From assembly GCF_001955695.1 (NCBI RefSeq), contig NZ_CP019236.1:2170001-2234000 (forward strand): 64,000 bases of DNA, written 5' to 3'. The notes beneath the pieces were generated by a model. The model saw only the letters and a program-made list of their open reading frames with translations. It made no database searches and was not told the DNA's origin. The number at the start of each line of letters is the position of its first letter. Within the stretch, counting starts at the first letter, position 1. The stretch comes from Rhodoferax koreense (GTDB lineage: Bacteria; Pseudomonadota; Gammaproteobacteria; Burkholderiales; Burkholderiaceae_C). The translations under genes and the position numbers were made by a program. This document shows, piece after piece, positions 23,839 through 31,997 of this stretch.

Positions 23839-23931
23839 GGAAACGTGACCGAGTGGCCGAAGGTGCTCCCCTGCTAAGGGAGTATGGGGTGTAGAGCCTC
23901 ATCGAGGGTTCGAATCCCTCCGTTTCCGCCA
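23839..23931 (+). tRNA. tRNA-Ser (anticodon GCU)
   Basis: A 93-base type II tRNA. The acceptor stem GGAAACG pairs with CGTTTCC (23921-23927), discriminator G, CCA encoded. The anticodon arm is CTCCC-CTGCTAA-GGGAG with anticodon GCU (reads AGC/AGU). A long variable arm and a GGTTCGAATCC T-loop are present. It is the integration target of the prophage: the last 14 bases plus two beyond are duplicated at the far end, and the tRNA remains intact. Confidence 0.96.
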
Positions 23932-24252
23932 AGATACCCCCTGTGAGCTTTCGGCTTGCAGGGGTTTTTTGGTTTTTGGGTCGAAGCTTTCATAGATGGC
24001 AATCACCTGCTGTTTAACTTCGGCTTTGTAGTCGTCGCTCTCGTCCAGCTGATCGGCTAGGTAGTCAACGATGGCTCGGCGCGGGTCTTCGCCTGCGATC
24101 TTGGCGATCTGGATTCGTCTCTCCAGGCCGCATATCTTTTTCCCCGTTTTGTAGTTGCTGATGTGCTGTGGTGCCACATCCAGCATCCGTGCAAGCTCGG
24201 CTTGGCTCCCCACTACCTCCACGGCCTTTTCGATAGTTAACTTCAATGACAT
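23899..24252 (-). CDS. Phage repressor-like helix-turn-helix protein whose C-terminus is set by integration
   Basis: A 117-aa protein starting MSLKLTIEKAVEVVGSQAEL, with a helix-turn-helix at about residues 13-36 (SQAELARMLDVAPQHISNYK), then an acidic helical region. The ATG at 24252 has AGGAG six bases upstream; the frame opens further to 24309 without support. It is divergent from the rest of the phage and next to inverted repeats, as a CI-type repressor would be. The gene crosses attL: its last residues (RDSNPR) are antisense tRNA-Ser and its stop lies in the tRNA. In the circular phage the reading frame would instead continue for 39 codons past the core, giving about 150 aa. A repressor role is inferred. 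Confidence 0.75.
   Translation of the reverse strand: MSLKLTIEKAVEVVGSQAELARMLDVAPQHISNYKTGKKICGLERRIQIAKIAGEDPRRAIVDYLADQLDESDDYKAEVKQQVIAIYESFDPKTKKPLQAESSQGVSWRKRRDSNPR
23918..23933. repeat. Left attachment site attL (16-bp core)
   Basis: CTCCGTTTCCGCCAAG covers the 3' acceptor end of tRNA-Ser and two further bases. The identical 16 bases recur at 31945-31960. Upstream of the core TTCGAA is also shared at the same spacing in both copies. Confidence 0.9.
23937..23970 (+). terminator. Phage-borne terminator behind tRNA-Ser
   Basis: CCCCCTG (23937-23943) and CAGGGG (23959-23964) enclose a loop and are followed by TTTTTT. This replaces the host tRNA terminator, now displaced to 31965-31997, which has the same CCCCTG...CAGGGG design. 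Confidence 0.75.
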
Positions 24253-24287
24253 GCGGTGCTCCTGCGCTTGTGTGTATCCCTTAAAAA

Positions 24288-24339
24288 GGTTACATTGCTG
24301 TAACCCCAAATAGGGATATGTAACCCTACCTCGGGTAAT
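24288..24339. promoter_or_regulatory. Candidate operators between repressor and early phage genes
   Basis: GGTTACA-TTGC-TGTAACC (24288-24305) is a perfect 7-bp inverted repeat. A second TGTAACC lies exactly 20 bp further (24319-24325), with a degenerate partner GGGTAAT (24333-24339). The pair stands in the divergent gap between the repressor and the rightward genes, where lambda-like switches place operators. Confidence 0.6.
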
Positions 24340-24365
24340 TATCGATCAACCTCACGGAGCCACCT

Positions 24366-24650
24366 GTGAAAAATCCCGACGACACGCACACCCCCGACCT
24401 TTTCGGAGTCTCCCCCGGCGCAAACGACAACGCCGCGTTGGTGGCTCAACCGGCAGAGTCCGGCCGGGGGGTCTCCACCCTGATCGTTCCTACGTCTGAT
24501 GTGTATTTGTCGATGAGCCCTGATGCTCGGCGCCTTCACTCCGATAAATGGGAGTTGGTTGAGGGTTGCAACGGCACGGTGAAACGTCAGCGCTTCTATG
24601 AGCGTCGTGTCCTCGCCGCTGCTGCTCGGCTGATCGGGGCGGGGCTATGA
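24366..24650 (+). CDS. Hypothetical phage protein (94 aa)
   Basis: A small soluble protein, MKNPDDTHTPDLFGVSPGAN at the start and a basic C-terminal half (KRQRFYERRVLAAAARLIGA). I do not recognise a family. It is the first rightward gene after the operators, so it is probably expressed early. The ATG lies about 8 bases after ACGGAGCC. Its stop overlaps the next start (ATGA), implying translational coupling. Confidence 0.6.
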   Translation: MKNPDDTHTPDLFGVSPGANDNAALVAQPAESGRGVSTLIVPTSDVYLSMSPDARRLHSDKWELVEGCNGTVKRQRFYERRVLAAAARLIGAGL

Positions 24651-24808
24651 GGCGCTACATCCCCTTCTTCGGCGCCTGCTTCGCATCGTTCGTCCTCGGC
24701 GCCCTGGTGCAGGCCTCGACCTTCGATGCGCCCGTGTGCGTCCAGTCGCTGCCATCTGTTTGGATGCAGCCCGGGGCCTATCCCCTCCCTGAGCCGAAGG
24801 CCCCTTGA
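24647..24808 (+). CDS. Small phage membrane or exported protein (53 aa)
   Basis: Begins MRRYIPFFGACFASFVLGAL, a basic start plus one hydrophobic helix, then VQASTFDAPVCVQ and a Pro-rich tail. It overlaps the previous gene by four bases and is directly followed by the next ATG, a spacing typical of inovirus gene trains. It may be an exported minor virion or assembly protein; no family is recognised. Confidence 0.5.
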   Translation: MRRYIPFFGACFASFVLGALVQASTFDAPVCVQSLPSVWMQPGAYPLPEPKAP

Positions 24809-24991
24809 ATGAATTTCGCCCAACTCAATGCGCGGCGTGTTCGTCGTCAGATGCGCGAACTGTTTCTGGCGCAACTCGGCGAGTTGTCGGCCGCGCAAGT
24901 CTTCCTTGAGGAACCGAATATGAACCTTGCCTTAGTCCTTGCGCGCAGGGTCTACGGCAGTGCTCCTGCTGCGTCCCATGAGGAAACCACC

Positions 24992-25303
24992 ATGCAATCT
25001 CTGATCCAAATTTTCAAGCTCGATGAAGTCAAAAAGGGCATCGCCAAGAAAACCGGCAACCCGTACGAGATCCACACCGCGCAGGCCGCGCTGATCGATG
25101 AAAACGGCCAAATCGATACGGTCGGCGTCCTCGACATCCCGCCCGCATTGCGCGAGAAAGTGCAGCCCGGCCTCTACGCCGGTTCCTTCGCCATGAAGAC
25201 CAATTTCCAGTCCGGCCGCATCGAGTCCGTTCTAACCGGCTTGGTGCCCCACGTGGTGCGCGCCGCGCCACCCGCACCGTCCACGCCTGCCGCAAAGGCC
25301 TAA
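24992..25303 (+). CDS. Phage single-stranded DNA-binding protein (gpV-like)
   Basis: A 103-aa protein beginning MQSLIQIFKLDEVKKGIAKK. TGNPYEIHTAQAALIDENGQ, PPALREKVQPGLYAGSFAMK and the beta-rich pattern fit inovirus ssDNA-binding proteins that coat the progeny strand before extrusion. The ATG at 24992 follows GAGGAAACCACC. The same frame is open back to an ATG at 24809, immediately after the preceding stop, and would add 61 residues that do not look like the DNA-binding fold; both forms may be made. Confidence 0.7.
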   Translation: MQSLIQIFKLDEVKKGIAKKTGNPYEIHTAQAALIDENGQIDTVGVLDIPPALREKVQPGLYAGSFAMKTNFQSGRIESVLTGLVPHVVRAAPPAPSTPAAKA

Positions 25304-25306
25304 GCC

Positions 25307-25408
25307 ATGGCCGCGCATTACGCCTACCTCACGGGCTTGATGCTGGCCGCCATCCTCGGTGGTGGTGCGGTCGCGGTCTGGCTCGTCAGGGAGTTGAAGA
25401 AAGGTTAG
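25307..25408 (+). CDS. Small inovirus membrane protein (33 aa)
   Basis: MAAHYAYLTGLMLAAILGGG with AVAVWLVRELKKG: a single hydrophobic helix with a basic C-terminus. Size and place, between the ssDNA-binding protein and major coat genes, are those of the gpVII/gpIX minor coat proteins that cap the first-emerging end of filamentous virions. It starts three bases after the preceding stop. Confidence 0.6.
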   Translation: MAAHYAYLTGLMLAAILGGGAVAVWLVRELKKG

Positions 25409-25493
25409 AGATTTCAGACCGGATCAGGTCATCGCAGGGATGCGCCGCCTGATCTGGCCTGCAATTTCGCAGGGCTCCAACCAAGGAAAAACC

Positions 25494-25718
25494 ATGTTCG
25501 TCACTCGCAAAGTCGCTCTCAAGTTCTCGGCCATTCCCGCCGCCATCTTGGCCGCTGCCGGTTCGGCAATGGCCGCTGCCCCGACCATCGATACCACGGC
25601 CGCGACCGATGGCATTGCCGCTGCCACCACGGCGGTCGGTGGTGTCATCGCCGCCATGATCACCTACCAAGTCGGCAAGTGGGCCCTCATGAAGGTCAAG
25701 GGTCTGTTCGGCCGCTGA
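25494..25718 (+). CDS. Major coat protein (gpVIII-like) with signal peptide
   Basis: A 74-aa precoat. Residues 1-27 are a signal peptide (basic start, hydrophobic core, SAMA cleavage). The mature part of about 47 residues has an acidic, small-residue N-terminus (two Asp), a hydrophobic centre (AVGGVIAAMITYQVGKWAL) and a basic C-terminus (KVKGLFGR) to contact DNA, exactly the coat protein design. AAGGAAAAACC precedes the ATG. A further in-frame start at 25440 would spoil the signal peptide and is not used. Confidence 0.88.
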   Translation: MFVTRKVALKFSAIPAAILAAAGSAMAAAPTIDTTAATDGIAAATTAVGGVIAAMITYQVGKWALMKVKGLFGR

Positions 25719-25735
25719 TCAGTCCGCTGATGCGA

Positions 25736-25770
25736 GGGGCCAGTGACACAGACCTGGTGATACCGGCCCT
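25736..25770 (+). terminator. Weak hairpin after the major coat gene
   Basis: GGGGCC (25736) and GGCCC (25765) could pair across about 23 bases, followed by TTCCT. Filamentous phages commonly place a partial terminator here so that coat protein mRNA exceeds downstream mRNA. No true T-run, so low confidence. Confidence 0.25.
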
Positions 25771-25796
25771 TCCTGTCAGTCGATTGGAGTAAACAC

Positions 25797-26195
25797 ATGG
25801 CTACCTGCGCAAGCTGGCAAGCGCCCTACGGGGATAGCGGATTTCAGGGCAACACCGTTGCGGAAGTCTGCGCAAAGGTCACGCAGGCGTACTGGTCGAA
25901 CGAGGCCACGTGGAGCGTCAACGGCGAACAGTGCACCGTGGTGGACGGTGAGGCGTCGAACACCTACAACTATCCGAAGCAATGCGATGCGCCGACCTCC
26001 ACGCCATCGGAAGGCAACACCATCAATTGCACCAGCGCGTGCACCGTCAGCCTCACGATTTCCCCGCCTGAACTCGATGCGGATCGCGTCCAGGCCGATC
26101 TGGTCCTGTGGGGCATGTGCCTTGGTTTCCTGGTCACGATCTGGGCGGGAAAACAGATCATCAACTTCTTTCGTACGGGGCGTTATGAGTCATGA
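25797..26195 (+). CDS. Probable minor virion protein with C-terminal membrane anchor (132 aa)
   Basis: Starts MATCASWQAPYGDSGFQGNT, has six Cys before the anchor, a Thr/Ser-rich middle and one membrane helix (about residues 104-124) followed by FFRTGRYES. There is no N-terminal signal peptide. Genes in this position in TspB-carrying inoviruses encode small structural proteins. It overlaps the next gene by 11 bp, suggesting coupled translation. No family recognised by name. Confidence 0.6.
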   Translation: MATCASWQAPYGDSGFQGNTVAEVCAKVTQAYWSNEATWSVNGEQCTVVDGEASNTYNYPKQCDAPTSTPSEGNTINCTSACTVSLTISPPELDADRVQADLVLWGMCLGFLVTIWAGKQIINFFRTGRYES

Positions 26196-27657
26196 TTTCA
26201 AGCCAAGAAATATTGTTGGTCTACTCGCTCTGTGTTGCGGTCTGGCTTTTGTTTCGGTGACCCACGCCGCCGTCCAGACTGCTGACGGCTTCGAGAAATT
26301 CATGGTCAAGGTCACCGAGAACTCTGCCACCGTTGGCTTTGGCTCTGGCGGCACGGCCGTTGTGACCAGTGCACCTACGGCCCTGGGCGGCACTTCTGGT
26401 TGGACCATGGCCGAGAAATGGGGCGTTGGTAAGTTGGCGAGTGGCTCAGCCGCCGTTGGGCAGGTTGGGGAGGTAGCTCTCGCTGGTGGCAAGGTGCCCG
26501 TGACGCTCGCTTCGACGGTGAGTAAGGCCGGCGCGTTGAAGGCGTTCGGTAAGGCTGTTGGTGCGCTCGCAGGTGGTCCGCTCGGGCTCGCGCTGTTTGC
26601 GGTGCCTGCCGTCATGGAAGCGATGCAAGCGGCCGGGGTGTCCTCCAACATTGATCCCAATACGGGCTATCACAAGCCCGCCGCCCCGTTCAAGAAAAGC
26701 TTGTCGATTGACGGCTATACGTGGTGGGCAAACAAGGGCACGCCCTATCAGGCTCAGGCCGGAACTGCTTGCGCTGCTGCTCGTCAGAGCTTCGAGCTTT
26801 CTGTCCAGCTGTACGGGTCCGTCTATAAGTTTCGCCAGTGCGAAGAGTCGGGTATCTCCCTCGTCGCGAAGGACAATCCCAACTTCATTGCCTACATGTC
26901 GGCGGTGCGGGAAACGTCTACGACCTTGGAGACAAGGGAGGCCAATTGGGATGAGGTCAGGCCCGACTTTGAGTCCGCAGATTTTGACCTCGCTTCATTG
27001 GTCAAGGCACAGCTTGATGCGCGTGAGAAGGCGCAAAAGAACGGCATCGTGCCGTGGCCGACTGATGTCGAGTCCACCAAGGTGACAGGCCCTGCGACGA
27101 TTCCGCCGATTACGGAAACGGAGACCACGACGCGCACGGTCGTCGGTCCTGATGGCATTACCCGCACGGAAGAGGTCACCAAGACAACGACCACCACGCG
27201 GCCGGTCACATACACCGATGAGGGCGTCAAGGTGCAGCCATCGGCCACGACCACGACCACGACAAAGCTGACCAACCCGGATGGCAGCAGCACGACGACG
27301 ACTGATACGGAAACGACGACAAAGGACACGGATAAACCCGCTAGCGAGGACAAGGAAACCGACTTGTGCGTGCTGCATCCGGAAATCATTGCCTGCGCCA
27401 AGCTGGGCGATGCACCAGACGCTGAACAACTTCCAAAAGCGGAAAAGACCGTCACCTTCACACCGGTAGCCTTCCAGAGCAATGCCACGTGCCCCGCTGG
27501 CGTGCCCATCGACTACACGCTGTTCGGTCGTAGCGCCCACTACGTGATCCCCTTCGAACCGCTGTGCAACGCCGCCAGCACCTACATCCGCCCGTTGTTG
27601 CTGTTGGCCGCTGCCTTGGTCGCGGCGGGCATCTTCGTTGGCGGCTTGAAGGCGTAG
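26185..27657 (+). CDS. Adsorption/attachment protein (gpIII position, TspB-like)
   Basis: A 490-aa exported protein. Residues 1-29 form a signal peptide ending THA. A Gly/Ala/Val-rich N-terminal region follows, then a long Thr-rich low-complexity linker (about residues 300-390). The Cys-containing C-terminal domain has TDLCVLHPEIIACAKLGD and FGRSAHYVIPFEPLC, then a membrane anchor (LLLLAAALVAAGIFVGGLKA). That arrangement is the one of Neisseria TspB-family proteins and of inovirus pilus-binding proteins. It should define host range. The start overlaps the preceding gene. Confidence 0.75.
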   Translation: MSHDFKPRNIVGLLALCCGLAFVSVTHAAVQTADGFEKFMVKVTENSATVGFGSGGTAVVTSAPTALGGTSGWTMAEKWGVGKLASGSAAVGQVGEVALAGGKVPVTLASTVSKAGALKAFGKAVGALAGGPLGLALFAVPAVMEAMQAAGVSSNIDPNTGYHKPAAPFKKSLSIDGYTWWANKGTPYQAQAGTACAAARQSFELSVQLYGSVYKFRQCEESGISLVAKDNPNFIAYMSAVRETSTTLETREANWDEVRPDFESADFDLASLVKAQLDAREKAQKNGIVPWPTDVESTKVTGPATIPPITETETTTRTVVGPDGITRTEEVTKTTTTTRPVTYTDEGVKVQPSATTTTTTKLTNPDGSSTTTTDTETTTKDTDKPASEDKETDLCVLHPEIIACAKLGDAPDAEQLPKAEKTVTFTPVAFQSNATCPAGVPIDYTLFGRSAHYVIPFEPLCNAASTYIRPLLLLAAALVAAGIFVGGLKA

Positions 27658-27660
27658 AAC

Positions 27661-27951
27661 ATGGGAACCCTCGCGCAACTCTTGATGGGCCTTGTCGCCC
27701 CGATGGTCCTCCGGGGCCTCGCGGCGCTCGGCTTTACCGCAGTGACCTTCACCGGTGTTCAACTGGTCGTGGATCAATTGATCGCGCAGGCGCAAAGCTC
27801 ATGGTCCGCTGTGCCGACCGCCATGCTGCAAATGGCCAGTCTCGCGGGCCTGCCTGAGTCCATTGGCCTGATCTGCGGTGCTTACATCGCGCGCATCACG
27901 TTGTGGTCAGCGGCCAATGCCACCAAGCTGCTCTTCACCGGCAAAACATGA
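27661..27951 (+). CDS. gpVI-like minor coat protein (DUF2523 type)
   Basis: A 96-aa hydrophobic protein with about three membrane segments (MGTLAQLLMGLVAPMVLRGL, a middle helix and a C-terminal one) and a basic end. The size and position, between the adsorption protein and Zot, are those of gpVI/DUF2523 proteins that terminate virion assembly. It starts three bases after the preceding stop and overlaps the zot start by four bases. Confidence 0.75.
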   Translation: MGTLAQLLMGLVAPMVLRGLAALGFTAVTFTGVQLVVDQLIAQAQSSWSAVPTAMLQMASLAGLPESIGLICGAYIARITLWSAANATKLLFTGKT

Positions 27952-29045
27952 TCGATCTTTTCACCGGCAACCCTGGCGGCGGTAAGACCCTCTTGGCCGT
28001 CTCTGAACTGGCTGCGCTGTTCAAGCAATGGGAAAAGGACGGCACCACGGCCCGCGCCGTCTACGTCTGGGGCATCAAGGGCTTGACCCTGCCACACAAT
28101 GTCATTGACGCGTGGCCGCTGACTGGTAAAAAGGGCGATGAGATACCGGTGGACAGCCGGGGCCTGCCGACCTGTGCACTCGCGATGGATTTCGGTGAGA
28201 TCCCCGACGGCTCCCTGGTCATCATCGATGAGGCGCAGTACCTTTTTCCGATGCGTGGCCCGTCGGTTGGTCAGCCGGTGCATTCCAAGTTCCTCAACAC
28301 GCACCGGCATGCTGGGCTCGATATTTGGCTGATCACCCAGCACCCAAAGAACCTCGATAACGGCGTGCGGCGTCTCGTCAACAAGCATCGGCACATTCGC
28401 CGCGTCTTCGGCTGGAACCGTGCCGTGATTTACGAGTGGGCGCATTGCGAGGATGGCTTGCAGGGCCTGAAACACGCGGTCATGGTCAATTGGACCTATC
28501 CGAAAAAGACCTTTGCGCTGTACAAGTCGGCCGAGATTCACACCAAGCAAGCCTTCAAAAAGCCGTGGTGGATGTGGCTCCCCGTGCTCATGATCCCCGT
28601 GGCGGTCTGGGCCGTGCCGCGTGTCTGGGATACCGTCGTCGGCGTCAAGTCCGGTAACGGCATCGTGCCATCGAAAAAGCCCGCTGAACCGCCGCCACGC
28701 CCCGCGCAGGCTCAACCCTTGGTAACCCCCTCCGCTACACCTGCGGCACCCGCACCGGTCGCGCCAGCGTCGTCGGCACCGGCTCCCGCGAAGTTCGCTG
28801 GTTGCGTCTCCATGCGGGGTGCCTGTAAATGCATTGATACCGCTGGTGAGCCGGTCGACAAGGAACCGTCGATGTGTCTCGATATCGTGGGCGCGAACCG
28901 CCCGGAAAAGCTGGCCGAGATTCCCGCATCGCTCAAGGAACACCATCCGCCGCCCCCGCCTAAGGGTTGGGTCGGTTGGGCGCCCGATACGGCGCCGCGG
29001 CGTACCGGGTCCACGGTGGCCGATGTCGTGGCCGCGTTCCGATGA
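27948..29045 (+). CDS. zot: Zot-domain assembly ATPase (gpI)
   Basis: A 365-aa morphogenesis protein. The N-terminal Zot domain has Walker A GNPGGGKT at residues 7-14 and Walker B SLVIIDEAQYLFP at about 89-101, with NTHRHAGLDIWLITQHPKNL after it. One membrane helix lies at about 206-225, then a Pro/Ala-rich periplasmic linker and a small Cys-containing domain (FAGCVSMRGACKCI). It powers extrusion of the coated ssDNA through the inner membrane. It overlaps the gpVI-like gene (ATGA). Confidence 0.92.
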   Translation: MIDLFTGNPGGGKTLLAVSELAALFKQWEKDGTTARAVYVWGIKGLTLPHNVIDAWPLTGKKGDEIPVDSRGLPTCALAMDFGEIPDGSLVIIDEAQYLFPMRGPSVGQPVHSKFLNTHRHAGLDIWLITQHPKNLDNGVRRLVNKHRHIRRVFGWNRAVIYEWAHCEDGLQGLKHAVMVNWTYPKKTFALYKSAEIHTKQAFKKPWWMWLPVLMIPVAVWAVPRVWDTVVGVKSGNGIVPSKKPAEPPPRPAQAQPLVTPSATPAAPAPVAPASSAPAPAKFAGCVSMRGACKCIDTAGEPVDKEPSMCLDIVGANRPEKLAEIPASLKEHHPPPPPKGWVGWAPDTAPRRTGSTVADVVAAFR

Positions 29046-29260
29046 AAACCGCCATGCAGGCCGCGAGGGGGCCTTACTTGAAAACCGCCACCAGCTCGAG
29101 CACGATTAAGCGTCTTCGTATCGCGCAGGGTATGACGCAGGTTCAGTGTGCCGCGCATTGCCGTGTGCCACTTCGCACCTTTCAGCGGGCTGAAGCAGAC
29201 GACTATGTGGAGCGTTCCACCAAGCGGTCCATCGAGCGTGCGCTGGGGTTGTCTTGGTGA
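29042..29260 (+). CDS. Small helix-turn-helix protein (72 aa)
   Basis: Begins MKTAMQAARGPYLKTATSSS, then TIKRLRIAQGMTQVQCAAHC and RVPLRTFQRAEADDYVERST, a compact Xre/Cro-like helix-turn-helix. It overlaps the zot stop (ATGA) and sits just before the non-coding origin region. Its role could be a second regulator opposing the repressor. Its first seven codons are embedded in a 20-bp sequence repeated at 29258. Confidence 0.6.
   Translation: MKTAMQAARGPYLKTATSSSTIKRLRIAQGMTQVQCAAHCRVPLRTFQRAEADDYVERSTKRSIERALGLSW
29043..29062 (+). repeat. Direct repeat copy 1 (20 bp)
   Basis: TGAAAACCGCCATGCAGGCC, identical to 29258-29277. A 12-bp partial copy, TGAAAACCGCCA, lies at 29079-29090. Confidence 0.85.
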
Positions 29261-29277
29261 AAACCGCCATGCAGGCC
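29258..29277 (+). repeat. Direct repeat copy 2 (20 bp)
   Basis: Identical to 29043-29062. A GTG at 29257 overlaps the end of the HTH gene and would begin VKTAMQAW, mirroring the HTH gene start. The 98-codon frame that follows has composition unlike protein, so I do not call it a gene. Confidence 0.85.
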
Positions 29278-29630
29278 TGGCGCTCTTCCTGGTTGCAGCA
29301 AGGGGGCCCCCAGCAAGCGAATAGCGATGCGGCACGGGGGGCGGGGTATGGGGTGCAACCCCATGGTCAACCTTGGCGGGCCGTGGCGCTGCCCGGCGTT
29401 CCGTCAGGCCATAGCCTGATGGCGCTCCCCCTCCCGATTCCCTTTCGTTCTGCGGCAGAGAGCGCAGGCTGCAGCGGCAAGCGGGCGCTGGCGACCGCGC
29501 CGCGCAGCGGCGCTAGATTTATCCCTAAGACACTTTGGCACATAGCGGGTTGAAACCCGCAAAAAGGTGAACCCGGCAACAGCGGCAAACTGTTCCGGGT
29601 TCTTGACAAACAGCGATACGAGCACTGTTC
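29278..29630. other. Phage intergenic region with hairpins, probable replication origin
   Basis: A 350-bp region without a convincing gene before the replication initiator. Stems: ATGGGGT/ACCCCAT (29348-29364), CCGTCAGGC/GCCTGATGG with one wobble (29401-29422), GCGGGTT/AACCCGC (29545-29560), and a long one, GAACCCGG-AACAG/CTGTT-CCGGGTTC (29569-29602, one bulge). TTGACA follows at 29604. Inoviruses carry plus and minus strand origins and the packaging hairpin in such a region; which stem does what is not decided here. Confidence 0.6.
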
Positions 29631-30557
29631 ATGATCAGAATTATCGACCAATTGGGTAACCGTGTAAAACCCGGCTGTTCTCCGGCCCATCTGCGCCGCT
29701 GCGGTGCCCGCGCCTACCTCGGCAGGTCCGGCGATCACTTCAAGCTCAAGGCGACCGACCTCGGAAACGGGCACCTTGAGATCGTCGGCTCGCGCACCAT
29801 GCTCTGGGAAGAACTCGATTGGCCCATCGGCCAGATTGCCGACCATCTCGACATGCTGGAGCGGCACGCCGAAGAACACGCCGAAGAGATCCGGCAAAAG
29901 CATGCCGAACAGGCCGCCAAACGGGCCAAGAAACGCGTTCGGCAACTGTGCAAGGGCATGGGGGCCGATACCCTGCTCACGCTGACCTATCAGGCCAATG
30001 AAACCGACATGGCCCGCTGCAAAGCGGATCTGAAGGAATTCAACCGCCGCATGCTGCGCCTGATTCCCGGCTTCCGCTTTGTCGCCGCGTTTGAACGACA
30101 AGACCGGGGCGCCTGCCATGTCCACATGGCCACGGAGCGCATCCCCGTTGAACTGCTGGCTAAGAACGGCACCAAGGTCAAGAGCTTCAACGTCATCCGC
30201 GCCGTGTGGCGTGGTGTCACCAAGGAACGCGGCGGCAACATCGATGTGCAGAACGCCAAACGCCGCATGCAGCGCACCCCGGCCCGCATCGCCAGCTACA
30301 TCGCCGGCTACATCATCAAGGCGTTTGAAGAGGGCGAACTGGAGTCCAACCGCTGGACCAAATACGGCAATTTCGATGCCCCGCCGAAACCCGTGGATCT
30401 CGGCATCTTCCCGACCCTGGAAACCATGATCGCAGGCGGTTACGCGATCCTTTTCGATGGCCATCAGGTCGACGTGATGCGCCTGGACCGCTGGAAAGAC
30501 TGGTTTGTCCTTTATGCTGAGCTGCCTCCTAAGCGCAGGGCTATGGCGGAGGTTTAA
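29631..30557 (+). CDS. Rolling-circle replication initiation protein (gpII, HUH type)
   Basis: A 308-aa protein. The metal-binding HUH motif is ACHVHMA (His 163 and 165), preceded by FRFVAAFERQDRG. The tyrosine motif is ARIASYIAGYIIK (Tyr 223 and 227). A charged helical stretch lies at about 75-105. It nicks the double-stranded form at the origin just upstream to start plus-strand synthesis. The ATG lies 22 bp after a TTGACA element and the large hairpin. Confidence 0.85.
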   Translation: MIRIIDQLGNRVKPGCSPAHLRRCGARAYLGRSGDHFKLKATDLGNGHLEIVGSRTMLWEELDWPIGQIADHLDMLERHAEEHAEEIRQKHAEQAAKRAKKRVRQLCKGMGADTLLTLTYQANETDMARCKADLKEFNRRMLRLIPGFRFVAAFERQDRGACHVHMATERIPVELLAKNGTKVKSFNVIRAVWRGVTKERGGNIDVQNAKRRMQRTPARIASYIAGYIIKAFEEGELESNRWTKYGNFDAPPKPVDLGIFPTLETMIAGGYAILFDGHQVDVMRLDRWKDWFVLYAELPPKRRAMAEV

Positions 30558-30567
30558 GGGGTCGCGA

Positions 30568-30978
30568 ATGGGCATGCAGGATAGGGACTATTACCGCGAA
30601 GAATTTGCCCGAAAGCAGGGCATGCAATACGACTCGCGCCGCGCTCGCTATTCCAGGCGCCGGGAAGCTGATCGCGTCGTGGCGGACACGGATGAGGATC
30701 GGGAAATTCGAAAACCGCCGCTCAGGCCCCGCGTTGATCTCGGCGTTACCGATGGTCCGCCCGACCCTTGGGGTGCGTCTTGGCATTGGGTGGTGAAAGT
30801 GGCCGTGTGGGTTACGGTTCTCAGCTTGTTGTTCGGAGTGTTTAAGTTTTTAGAGCGTCGCCAACAGGAACAGCGCCGTGTGGAGCGTCAGCTTGTCGAA
30901 CAGCAGCGTGTGATCGAAGAGTTGAAGCGCCAGAACGAGGCGTTGAAGCCCAAGCCAAAAATCGACTTCTTTAAGTAG
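30568..30978 (+). CDS. Small membrane protein with coiled coil (136 aa)
   Basis: Starts MGMQDRDYYREEFARKQGMQ. A very basic, charged N-terminal half is followed by one membrane helix (about residues 78-96, VVKVAVWVTVLSLLFGVFKF). The C-terminal tail is a heptad-rich coiled coil of Arg, Gln, Glu and Val. It follows the replication gene by 10 bp. Similar small proteins with a DRDYYRE start occur in other betaproteobacterial genomes; function unknown. Confidence 0.65.
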   Translation: MGMQDRDYYREEFARKQGMQYDSRRARYSRRREADRVVADTDEDREIRKPPLRPRVDLGVTDGPPDPWGASWHWVVKVAVWVTVLSLLFGVFKFLERRQQEQRRVERQLVEQQRVIEELKRQNEALKPKPKIDFFK

Positions 30979-31074
30979 CGTGCACTTTCACATTCAAGCA
31001 AATACGGTCTTTTTCTGGGCTTTGTCGGCAATACCGACCGGTAGCTTTTTTCCTCAACTACGAAGGAAAATTGC

Positions 31075-31650
31075 ATGCTGATTGGATATGCACGGGTGTC
31101 CACAAAGGAACAAGAGACCGACCTGCAGCTTGATGCGCTACGCAGGGCAGGGGTGACAGAGATCTATGAGGAGAAGGCAAGCTCGGTTGGTGCACGACCG
31201 CAGCTAAGGCGTTGCCTTGCGGCCCTGAAAAAGGGTGACGTTTTCGTGATCTACAAGCTCGACCGTGTTGCCCGGTCGCTGCCGGATCTGTTGTCTATCC
31301 TGGCCGATATCAAAACTGCCGGTGCGCTGGTCAAAAGCCTCACGGAACCGCTCGACACTACAACCGCCATGGGTTCGTTCGTCATTCAGATCCTCGGCGC
31401 TGTGGCCGAGTTGGAACGCGGCATCATCCGTGAACGCTCGATCGCTGGTCAGCAAGCCGCACGTGATCGTGGAAAGCTCCCCGGCCGATCCCGTGCGCTC
31501 GTTCCAGATGCTGAAGCCGAAGTCGTCAAGCTATATGCCAGTGGCGAATACACATTGAATACGTTGGCGAAGCTTTTTGGGGTATCTGATTCTGTCGTGA
31601 AGCGGGCAATCTATCGGGCGAAGAAGCCGGGCCATTCGAGTCTTCGGTGA
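31075..31650 (+). CDS. Serine recombinase (resolvase/invertase family), probable phage integrase
   Basis: A 191-aa small serine recombinase. MLIGYARVSTKEQETDLQL holds the nucleophile Ser 9; then FVIYKLDRVARSLPDLLSIL, GSFVIQILGAVAELERGIIR and ERSIAGQQAARDRGKLPGR. A C-terminal helix-turn-helix (YTLNTLAKLFGVSDSVVKRA) binds DNA. It lies about 300 bp from attR and no tyrosine integrase is present, so it most likely integrates and excises the phage, as reported for RSM phages. CGAAGGAAAATTGC precedes the ATG. Confidence 0.88.
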   Translation: MLIGYARVSTKEQETDLQLDALRRAGVTEIYEEKASSVGARPQLRRCLAALKKGDVFVIYKLDRVARSLPDLLSILADIKTAGALVKSLTEPLDTTTAMGSFVIQILGAVAELERGIIRERSIAGQQAARDRGKLPGRSRALVPDAEAEVVKLYASGEYTLNTLAKLFGVSDSVVKRAIYRAKKPGHSSLR

Positions 31651-31693
31651 CTTACGCGGTGCTAAAGTCCTTGCCTCAATGAAAGGAGTCAGA

Positions 31694-31894
31694 GTGGATC
31701 AACTTAATTTTCGTGACATCCGCGAAGTGCATCACACGACGCAAACGGCTGAGTTGAATGGGTATCTAAGTTTGGGGTGGGTACTTCTGAACACGGTTGC
31801 GGAGAGAGAGGGAGAGTCCGGTTGGTTCACGTATAGCGTGGGGTGGCCGTTTGAATTGCCATCCAAGCTCCCAAAACCACGCGCGTACGTTTAA
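31694..31894 (+). CDS. Hypothetical phage protein (66 aa)
   Basis: Starts at GTG 31694 with AAAGGAG five bases upstream; an in-frame ATG at 31679 lacks such a site. The sequence VDQLNFRDIREVHHTTQTAE, with LNGYLSLGWVLLNTVAERE and FTYSVGWPFELP, resembles small soluble proteins of phages and plasmids, but I assign no function. It is the last rightward phage gene before the terminator and attR, and is less GC-rich than the host. Confidence 0.55.
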   Translation: MDQLNFRDIREVHHTTQTAELNGYLSLGWVLLNTVAEREGESGWFTYSVGWPFELPSKLPKPRAYV

Positions 31895-31901
31895 CCAAGG
31901 C

Positions 31902-31934
31902 AAAAAAAAGACCCTGAAAGTGGGTCGATTTTTT
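31902..31934. terminator. Bidirectional terminator at the phage right end
   Basis: GACCC (31910-31914), loop TGAAAGT, GGGTC (31922-31926). It is followed on the + strand by TTTTTT and preceded by eight A, so it also ends in U on the minus strand. In the circular phage it would lie directly downstream of the repressor gene. Confidence 0.75.
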
Positions 31935-31944
31935 GTTCGAAATG

Positions 31945-31960
31945 CTCCGTTTCCGCCAAG
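31945..31960. repeat. Right attachment site attR (16-bp core)
   Basis: CTCCGTTTCCGCCAAG, identical to 23918-23933. TTCGAA at 31938 also matches the tRNA T-loop at the corresponding distance, so similarity extends beyond the core. Confidence 0.9.
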
Positions 31961-31964
31961 TTGT

Positions 31965-31997
31965 CCCCTGCGAGCCCTGTGCTCCCAGGGGATTTTT
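31965..31997 (+). terminator. Displaced host terminator of tRNA-Ser
   Basis: CCCCTG (31965-31970) and CAGGGG (31986-31991) with A then TTTTT. This is what followed the tRNA before phage insertion. Its arrangement matches the phage copy at 23937-23970. Confidence 0.7.

Follow-up and report, generated by a model that had tools for sequence, protein, structure and literature searches.

The locus and its features

The window, by which we mean the whole 64,000-nucleotide stretch of Rhodoferax koreense DNA that was analysed (contig NZ_CP019236.1), contains an inovirus prophage of 8.0 kb (23918-31960) that sits in a tRNA-Ser(GCT) gene. The features of the locus are collected in Table 1. Both copies of the 16-bp common core have the sequence CTCCGTTTCCGCCAAG, and identity stops at the core edges on either side. 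Zot and a G2P-type Rep were found above cut-off and an SSB-like PHROG match was obtained (Pfam and PHROG), and the match to a coat protein is weak (18.9 bits against a cut-off of 23.5). With the PF00239 match of the recombinase, the Zot and Rep matches support the assignment of the element to the inoviruses with a small serine recombinase, as the original prediction had held. The recombinase is presumed to be the integrase of the prophage, and it converges with the repressor gene across attP. The 71-aa ORF beside it has no family match in the Pfam and PHROG libraries, and the tail of the phage-form repressor is antisense to the 3' part of this ORF. The terminator region at the prophage end is related to the terminator region beyond attR by a 76-nt repeat of 79% identity.

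Table 1. Coordinates of the prophage features and their surroundings, in positions of the window
Feature	Position	Strand	Basis or remark
tRNA-Ser(GCT), integration target	23839..23931	+	ARAGORN
Repressor, prophage form, 117 aa + stop, ends SWRKRRDSNPR	23899..24252	-	ORF translation
attL common core, 16 bp	23918..23933		within the repressor ORF
Phage-carried intrinsic terminator of tRNA-Ser	23938..23964	+	fold -20.3 kcal/mol, z -4.1
Palindrome GGTTACATTGCTGTAACC, candidate operator	24288..24305		in the intergenic region of the repressor and the early genes, which diverge
Small serine recombinase, resolvase/invertase type, 191 aa	31075..31650	+	Pfam PF00239 1e-38; PHROG 125
71-aa ORF between recombinase and attR	31679..31894	+	
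Phage-form 3' part of the repressor, 39 codons + stop (31827-31829)	31827..31944	-	prophage ends joined on paper
Bidirectional terminator, minus-strand GACCCACTTTCAGGGTC-TTTTTTTT	31910..31926		within the phage-form repressor ORF, ahead of the stop codon
attR common core, 16 bp	31945..31960		
Displaced host tRNA-Ser terminator (probable), now at the right end	31963..31993	+	fold -20.4 kcal/mol, z -4.0

Two forms of the repressor

The repressor gene starts at an ATG at 24252 that is preceded by an AGGAG Shine-Dalgarno sequence on the minus strand. In the prophage the gene enters the core in frame, and its last codons and its TGA stop (23899-23901) come from antisense tRNA-Ser; translation thus bore out the original prediction that the repressor crosses the 16-bp attL core and ends in the antisense tRNA at 117 aa. 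When the prophage ends are joined on paper, 31827-31944 is connected via the core to 23934-24252 and the product is a repressor of 150 aa (...SWRKRSISNKK...ATPRYT). The 39 additional codons and the ATPRYT ending were as predicted, and the stop codon, which had been placed near 31823, is present at a position 4 nt away. Integration therefore shortens the C-terminus (150 to 117 aa) and also alters it, as had been claimed, since the two tails differ.

The window repressor passes the curated cut-off of the YdaS/Cro-like family PF15943 (34.1 bits against 30), and its YdaS/HTH_3-type domain is located in residues 1-90. AlphaFold placed six helices within residues 1-90 of the prophage form and modelled the remainder with low confidence. 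Foldseek returned P22 c2, lambda and other XRE domains with E values of ~0.1 and probabilities of ~1, and none at 0.001 or better. We count the protein as YdaS/Cro-like with a predicted XRE fold. The palindrome GGTTACATTGCTGTAACC has no other match in the window at up to 2 mismatches, and because at least one match was also found in 34 of 100 shuffles the palindrome taken alone is weak evidence of an operator.

Relatives found through the recombinase

The recombinase alignment was searched in 398 genomes of the host's family, and 30 of these had a match at E 1e-60 or better, at 34 places. Xanthomonadaceae was rejected as this family, because the host's family and that of a Polaromonas genome gave identical contigs when searched. 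The 35 regions considered comprise 33 that were fetched, a Polaromonas locus (L026, the 34th place, first found via the repressor) and the window; all resolved cases other than the window and L026 were reached via the recombinase, independently of the repressor. The prophage is bounded by a tRNA-Ser and a duplicated 3' end of 13-19 bp in 13 of the 35 regions. A search of related inoviruses for repressor genes that span attP had been proposed as a check, and it was positive in all 13 of these resolved tRNA-Ser prophages: in each, a repressor-like ORF with its start inside the prophage runs across the core, and its C-terminus differs between the prophage and the joined phage form. For comparison, 2 of the 26 other frames at the 13 sites (L287 and L289) are open for at least 50 codons into the core. 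At these two sites a second ORF in another frame also crosses it, and the L289 repressor was read from an internal start by the script. The frame in which the core is crossed is not always the same (L302, L264), and crossing is seen with convergent and with tandem genes (tandem in L301).

Eleven of the 13 crossing proteins were scanned against the PHROGs and all 11 match 638 and/or 31301 (transcriptional regulators and DNA-binding proteins), while those of L026 and L289 match the repressor profile built here and nothing else. Ten crossing proteins were compared with Pfam and none was above the cut-offs. The crossing proteins belong to two PHROG groups, 638/4441 and 31301, that are probably remotely related, as some 31301 members also match 638; the 13 cases are therefore not independent. 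In six of the 13 a TGA is created exactly at the host junction, where it replaces a phage codon (TAC in L295, TCA in L296, TGG in L300 and L303, TTA in L301 and L305). The two forms in L302 differ in sequence and barely in length (102 and 104 aa). Related recombinases are found at different tRNA-Ser genes with a common 3' end of 13-19 bp (L293, L295, L296, L300-L303, L305), and the target seems to be readily switched among tRNA-Ser isoacceptors.

The other 22 regions include L291, which is on the same contig as L264. Fourteen of the 22 have no tRNA and five others have tRNAs without a credible second copy of the core. L288 has a tRNA-Ser whose second copy is a 14-mer with 1 mismatch, with no repressor there, and in L307 a repressor-like ORF crosses at a tRNA-Ser for which no second core copy was found. 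Three of the regions that lack a tRNA as far as they were fetched (L294, L297 and L310) carry a related recombinase and a related repressor with an ordinary stop; they are weak comparators because their att sites were not located. L311 (3840-10663) is an inovirus-like segment with a related small serine recombinase that lies between two copies of a tRNA-Gly end (at least 30 bp). No repressor-like ORF crosses this tRNA-Gly repeat, and the one ORF that was tested there had no PHROG match.

The class-wide recombinase search had a match in 3 of 369 genomes, the genome of the window included, and repressor searches of genomes had matches in 20 of 299, 3 of 8 and 4 of 369, mostly weak HTH matches. 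A scan with the window-type repressor found one viral locus and one locus among genome contigs. The att 14-mer was found in at least 120 stretches of viral sequence, from which L128 was singled out.

Long forms seen directly and relatives at the protein level

The long form can also be observed without joining prophage ends. Two tandem inovirus prophage copies in one contig (L165, 355-9067) contain both forms of the repressor, one of 124 aa beside the tRNA and one of 164 aa at the internal junction, and the two are identical up to the core. The long form is likewise visible in L128, which has near-repeated ends and is thus circular or tandem, in L264 (a 6.8-kb contig) and in L188. In L185, which has a 95-bp terminal repeat, the core and tail are read directly and the full ORF runs across the repeat. 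The stop of the joined phage-form repressor overlaps the recombinase ATG in L301 (TCATGCTGA), and an overlap of the repressor stop and integrase start is seen without joining in L198, a tandem contig; in these two, integration would separate the repressor and integrase genes.

A free circular inovirus genome, Dulem virus 61 (L265, 2424-2741), has a recombinase of 55% identity and a repressor that ends WRRR. A TGA is located inside the core-like sequence of this free genome, so integration may leave the repressor unchanged and the virus may be a natural control. In L218 the repressor stop precedes the core-like end sequence.

Among 72 window-type repressor relatives, 30 end in antisense tRNA-Ser, and in 7 the core codons are followed by 17 or more residues of unrelated tail. 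A further 25 lack the core motif by the pattern used, which wrongly missed P0031 and P0070, and it follows that the repressor can work without crossing. There are also homologues of 93-95 aa without any tail. For the DEKK-type group, 118 new proteins were obtained among 120 of 486 matches listed. Antisense tRNA supplies the end of 87 of these 118; another 13 carry a different tail of 17 or more residues, 13 carry one of 1-16 residues, and the remaining 5 stop at the core. The long-tailed proteins look like the expected free-phage forms.

Some protein ends are of other kinds. In P0013 from Polaromonas the core motif occurs twice in succession (WRKR ... WRKRRDSNPR), which looks as though another element or terminator were present between the phage and the tRNA. 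Short odd tails follow the core in L184, P0143, P0148, P0173 and P0179 and are perhaps supplied by a neighbouring element beside the prophage.

Terminators and double use of the DNA

The DNA that encodes the end of the repressor has a second use. The strand opposite the terminator at 23938-23964 encodes the repressor tail KPLQAESSQG, and the hairpin at 31963-31993 is probably the host's own original tRNA-Ser terminator, moved by integration. The phage brings a look-alike tRNA-Ser terminator, and the tRNA of the lysogen therefore keeps one. As the att site, the terminator and the repressor end occupy one place, the overlap may be neutral: the repressor stop would have been lost once beside att, its 3' end would at the same time be the terminator and the tRNA end needed by the phage, and both C-termini would be equally functional with no switch. 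The tail codons are constrained as terminator DNA and the homologues of 93-95 aa do without a tail, both of which are consistent with this account. We consider it a serious rival though rather unlikely, for reasons that include the expectation that decay would leave some tRNA-Ser prophages with a stop before the core.

A terminator (a hairpin and T-run) lies between the core and the stop in 5 of 18 phage forms (window, L026, L296, L300 and L303). The expectation from shuffles is 0.52, and none of 200 shuffle sets reaches 5. These five cases suggest a bolder reading, which we hold to be improbable, in which the repressor mRNA of the free circle ends within the ORF (at 31910-31926 in the window, and likewise in the other four), the host tmRNA tags the repressor for destruction, and integration supplies a stop codon from the tRNA gene. 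Nothing was found on this non-stop-message idea in the literature covered, which lacks most subscription papers. As a mechanism for all relatives it was rejected, since the phage forms other than these 5 of 18 have no terminator or have it at or after the stop, the latter in L302 and L305. The tails of P0018, P0022, P0028, P0006 and P0051, judged by protein sequence, look like read-through of such a hairpin.

Tests for selection on the tail

Past the core, the frame that is used has a median open run of 40.7 codons in the 18 phage forms, compared with 13.3 codons in the other two frames. Eleven of the 18 tails overlap the end of the recombinase gene by at least 87 nt, and 9 of those 11 do so in the stop-poor phase. 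Tail openness was rejected as proof of selection because the phase of the antisense reading frame explains the length; the median open run in phase 0 is 30 in recombinases not known to be crossed (n = 84) and 31 in crossing ones (n = 21; p = 0.35). An exploratory count of open runs of at least 20 codons (19/21 crossing and 52/84 other recombinases, Fisher p = 0.009) was set aside, as it was post hoc, used a crossing list made by hand and is confounded by ancestry.

A nonpolar residue ends 11 of 18 phage forms (background 46%, p = 0.15) and 3 of 13 prophage forms. Of the phage-form-like proteins, which were picked by hand, 14 of 20 end in one. The window phage form has no ssrA-like end (...ATPRYT, not LAA-like), and some relatives have phage forms that end in ALA, LVA, LDA or LSA. 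A C-terminal degron was not accepted, as these ends are only suggestive and the nonpolar excess is not significant. The phage-form tails are not conserved between subfamilies, and AlphaFold gave low confidence to the C-terminal parts of both modelled proteins, the window prophage form and the L165 phage form. At the level of sequence, neither tail length nor tail composition shows selection, and the idea that the integrated form is the stable and active one drew no support from these comparisons. A tail whose length needs no selection, whose sequence is not conserved in the free phage and whose modelled structure is of low confidence fits the neutral account of the overlap described above.

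The tails that run into the recombinase gene, together with the repressor-integrase stop/start overlaps in L301 and L198, could also point to an effect at the level of RNA. Repressor transcription through attP in the free circle, either antisense to the recombinase 3' end or as an operon, would tune the integrase and integration would uncouple the two, with the change in the protein as a by-product. In the window, however, a bidirectional terminator lies between the two genes and a gap of 179 nt remains between the end of the tail and the recombinase; in L303 this gap is 220 nt. We regard an RNA-level role as doubtful.

Integration as a possible switch

The location of attP in the 3' part of the repressor gene, and the exchange of the tail on integration, are firm across a large family of relatives as read from their genomes. 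We estimate a probability of about 0.56 that the exchange of tails acts as a lysogeny switch, as in integration-dependent immunity. This is the best reading because the layout is found again with different repressor groups, recombination systems and gene orders, and recurrence over several repressor types argues for function. It also weighs against a neutral overlap that all 13 resolved tRNA-Ser prophages show the crossing, with two PHROG groups, more than one frame and both arrangements represented, and that phiRSS0 and XacF1, which use another integration system, have the same layout in the accessible parts of their descriptions.

As read from the sequence, integration by the recombinase replaces the 39-codon phage tail by a short host tail that ends in antisense tRNA. 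In the proposed switch, the repressor made from the free circle would be unstable or less active owing to its disordered tail, and in the window phage and a subset of relatives the instability might arise from a message that ends at the terminator before any stop codon. Integration would then provide the stop codon and the trimmed repressor would accumulate, bind the candidate operator between the divergent promoters and confer immunity. In tandem-type relatives integration would also cut the integrase off from the repressor transcript. The DNA of the repressor tail serves at the same time as the terminator that replaces the displaced one of the tRNA, as the sequence shows.

If the switch is real, integration would have been turned into a switch repeatedly in evolution, by a device that fits even small ssDNA phages. 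It is suggested that many database proteins that end in ...WRKRRDSNPR are perhaps repressors with tRNA-templated tails and not annotation noise. If the non-stop reading were also true, ssDNA phages would have integration-dependent immunity that acts via ribosome rescue with no encoded degron. The system offers a direct test, as there are two protein forms and one candidate operator.

Comparison with known systems

Integration-dependent immunity is known above all from the tailed phages of actinobacteria, and it was reportedly described in the mycobacteriophages BPs and Brujita by Broussard in 2013. In the accessible parts of the published accounts, the BPs repressor is shortened from 136 to 103 aa on integration and the long form is degraded (PMC4557955, PMC9262239), and both forms bind DNA similarly (PMC4557955). 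The likeness of the window prophage to BPs is one of layout. In both, attP lies inside the repressor ORF, the target is in a tRNA gene and host sequence shortens the repressor, from 150 to 117 aa in the window; a host-made stop codon at the junction, as in BPs, is found in 6 of 13 inovirus prophages, and the coupling of repressor and integrase in L301 and L198 is nearest to the mycobacteriophage layout. Unlike BPs, which has a tyrosine integrase, the window element is an ssDNA inovirus with a PF00239 small serine recombinase, its repressor and recombinase genes are convergent and do not form an operon, and its recombinase ends in PGHSSLR with no LAA-like degradation tag as in the BPs integrase.

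Inoviruses of Ralstonia and Xanthomonas, as described in the accessible parts of the papers, also have attP inside a regulator or immunity gene that is changed by integration (PMC3816273, PMC4471427, PMC5666396). In phiRSS0, attP (dif) is in ORF13 and integration shortens the product from 156 to 130 aa (PMC3816273). In XacF1, attP is in ORF12 and integration splits this gene; with a deletion at the 5' end of ORF12 the integrated state was unstable (PMC5666396). These phages use host XerCD at dif, with no phage integrase and no tRNA, whereas the window prophage uses its own recombinase and tRNA-Ser. The original prediction that the switch logic of BPs arose in this inovirus stands for the layout (attP in the repressor, 150 to 117 aa), and the novelty that it implied is reduced, as phiRSS0 and XacF1 came earlier on the published evidence available.

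Yamada (2013) put forward the hypothesis that the short and long forms of phiRSS0 differ in function (PMC3816273, accessible parts). Applied here, the long form would regulate other phage or host promoters or act as an activator, and the short form would maintain the prophage (his Hypothesis 1). The similar DNA binding of the two BPs forms, as far as the available text of that paper goes, is in keeping with two active proteins. If the long form had a job of its own, however, its tail should show conserved sequence and a confident fold. No such conservation is seen between subfamilies, and the one free-form tail that was modelled (L165 phage form) has no confident fold; we consider two active forms very unlikely, and the switch remains our preferred reading.

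A literature search on integration-dependent immunity and inoviruses returned only a mycobacteriophage review, with most subscription papers outside its coverage, and no report of a tRNA-Ser inovirus variant with attP in the repressor was found, as judged from the titles listed. Nor did the literature covered yield any experiment on how stable the repressors of this family are, how they bind or whether they confer immunity. The nearest systems by recombination are phiRSM1, phiRSM3 and phiRs551 of Ralstonia, which, in the accessible parts of their descriptions, share with the window prophage a small serine recombinase, a core that is the 3' end of tRNA-Ser and a neighbouring repressor. In phiRSM, attP reportedly lies between the integrase and the repressor and the repressor is said to be unchanged by integration (PMC3816273, PMC4471427, PMC5608472, accessible parts), whereas attP of the window prophage is inside the repressor, with the phiRSM phages compared by published description. 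The attP-in-repressor logic is thus not new for inoviruses, and its tRNA-Ser/serine-recombinase variant is widespread and, within the literature covered, new.
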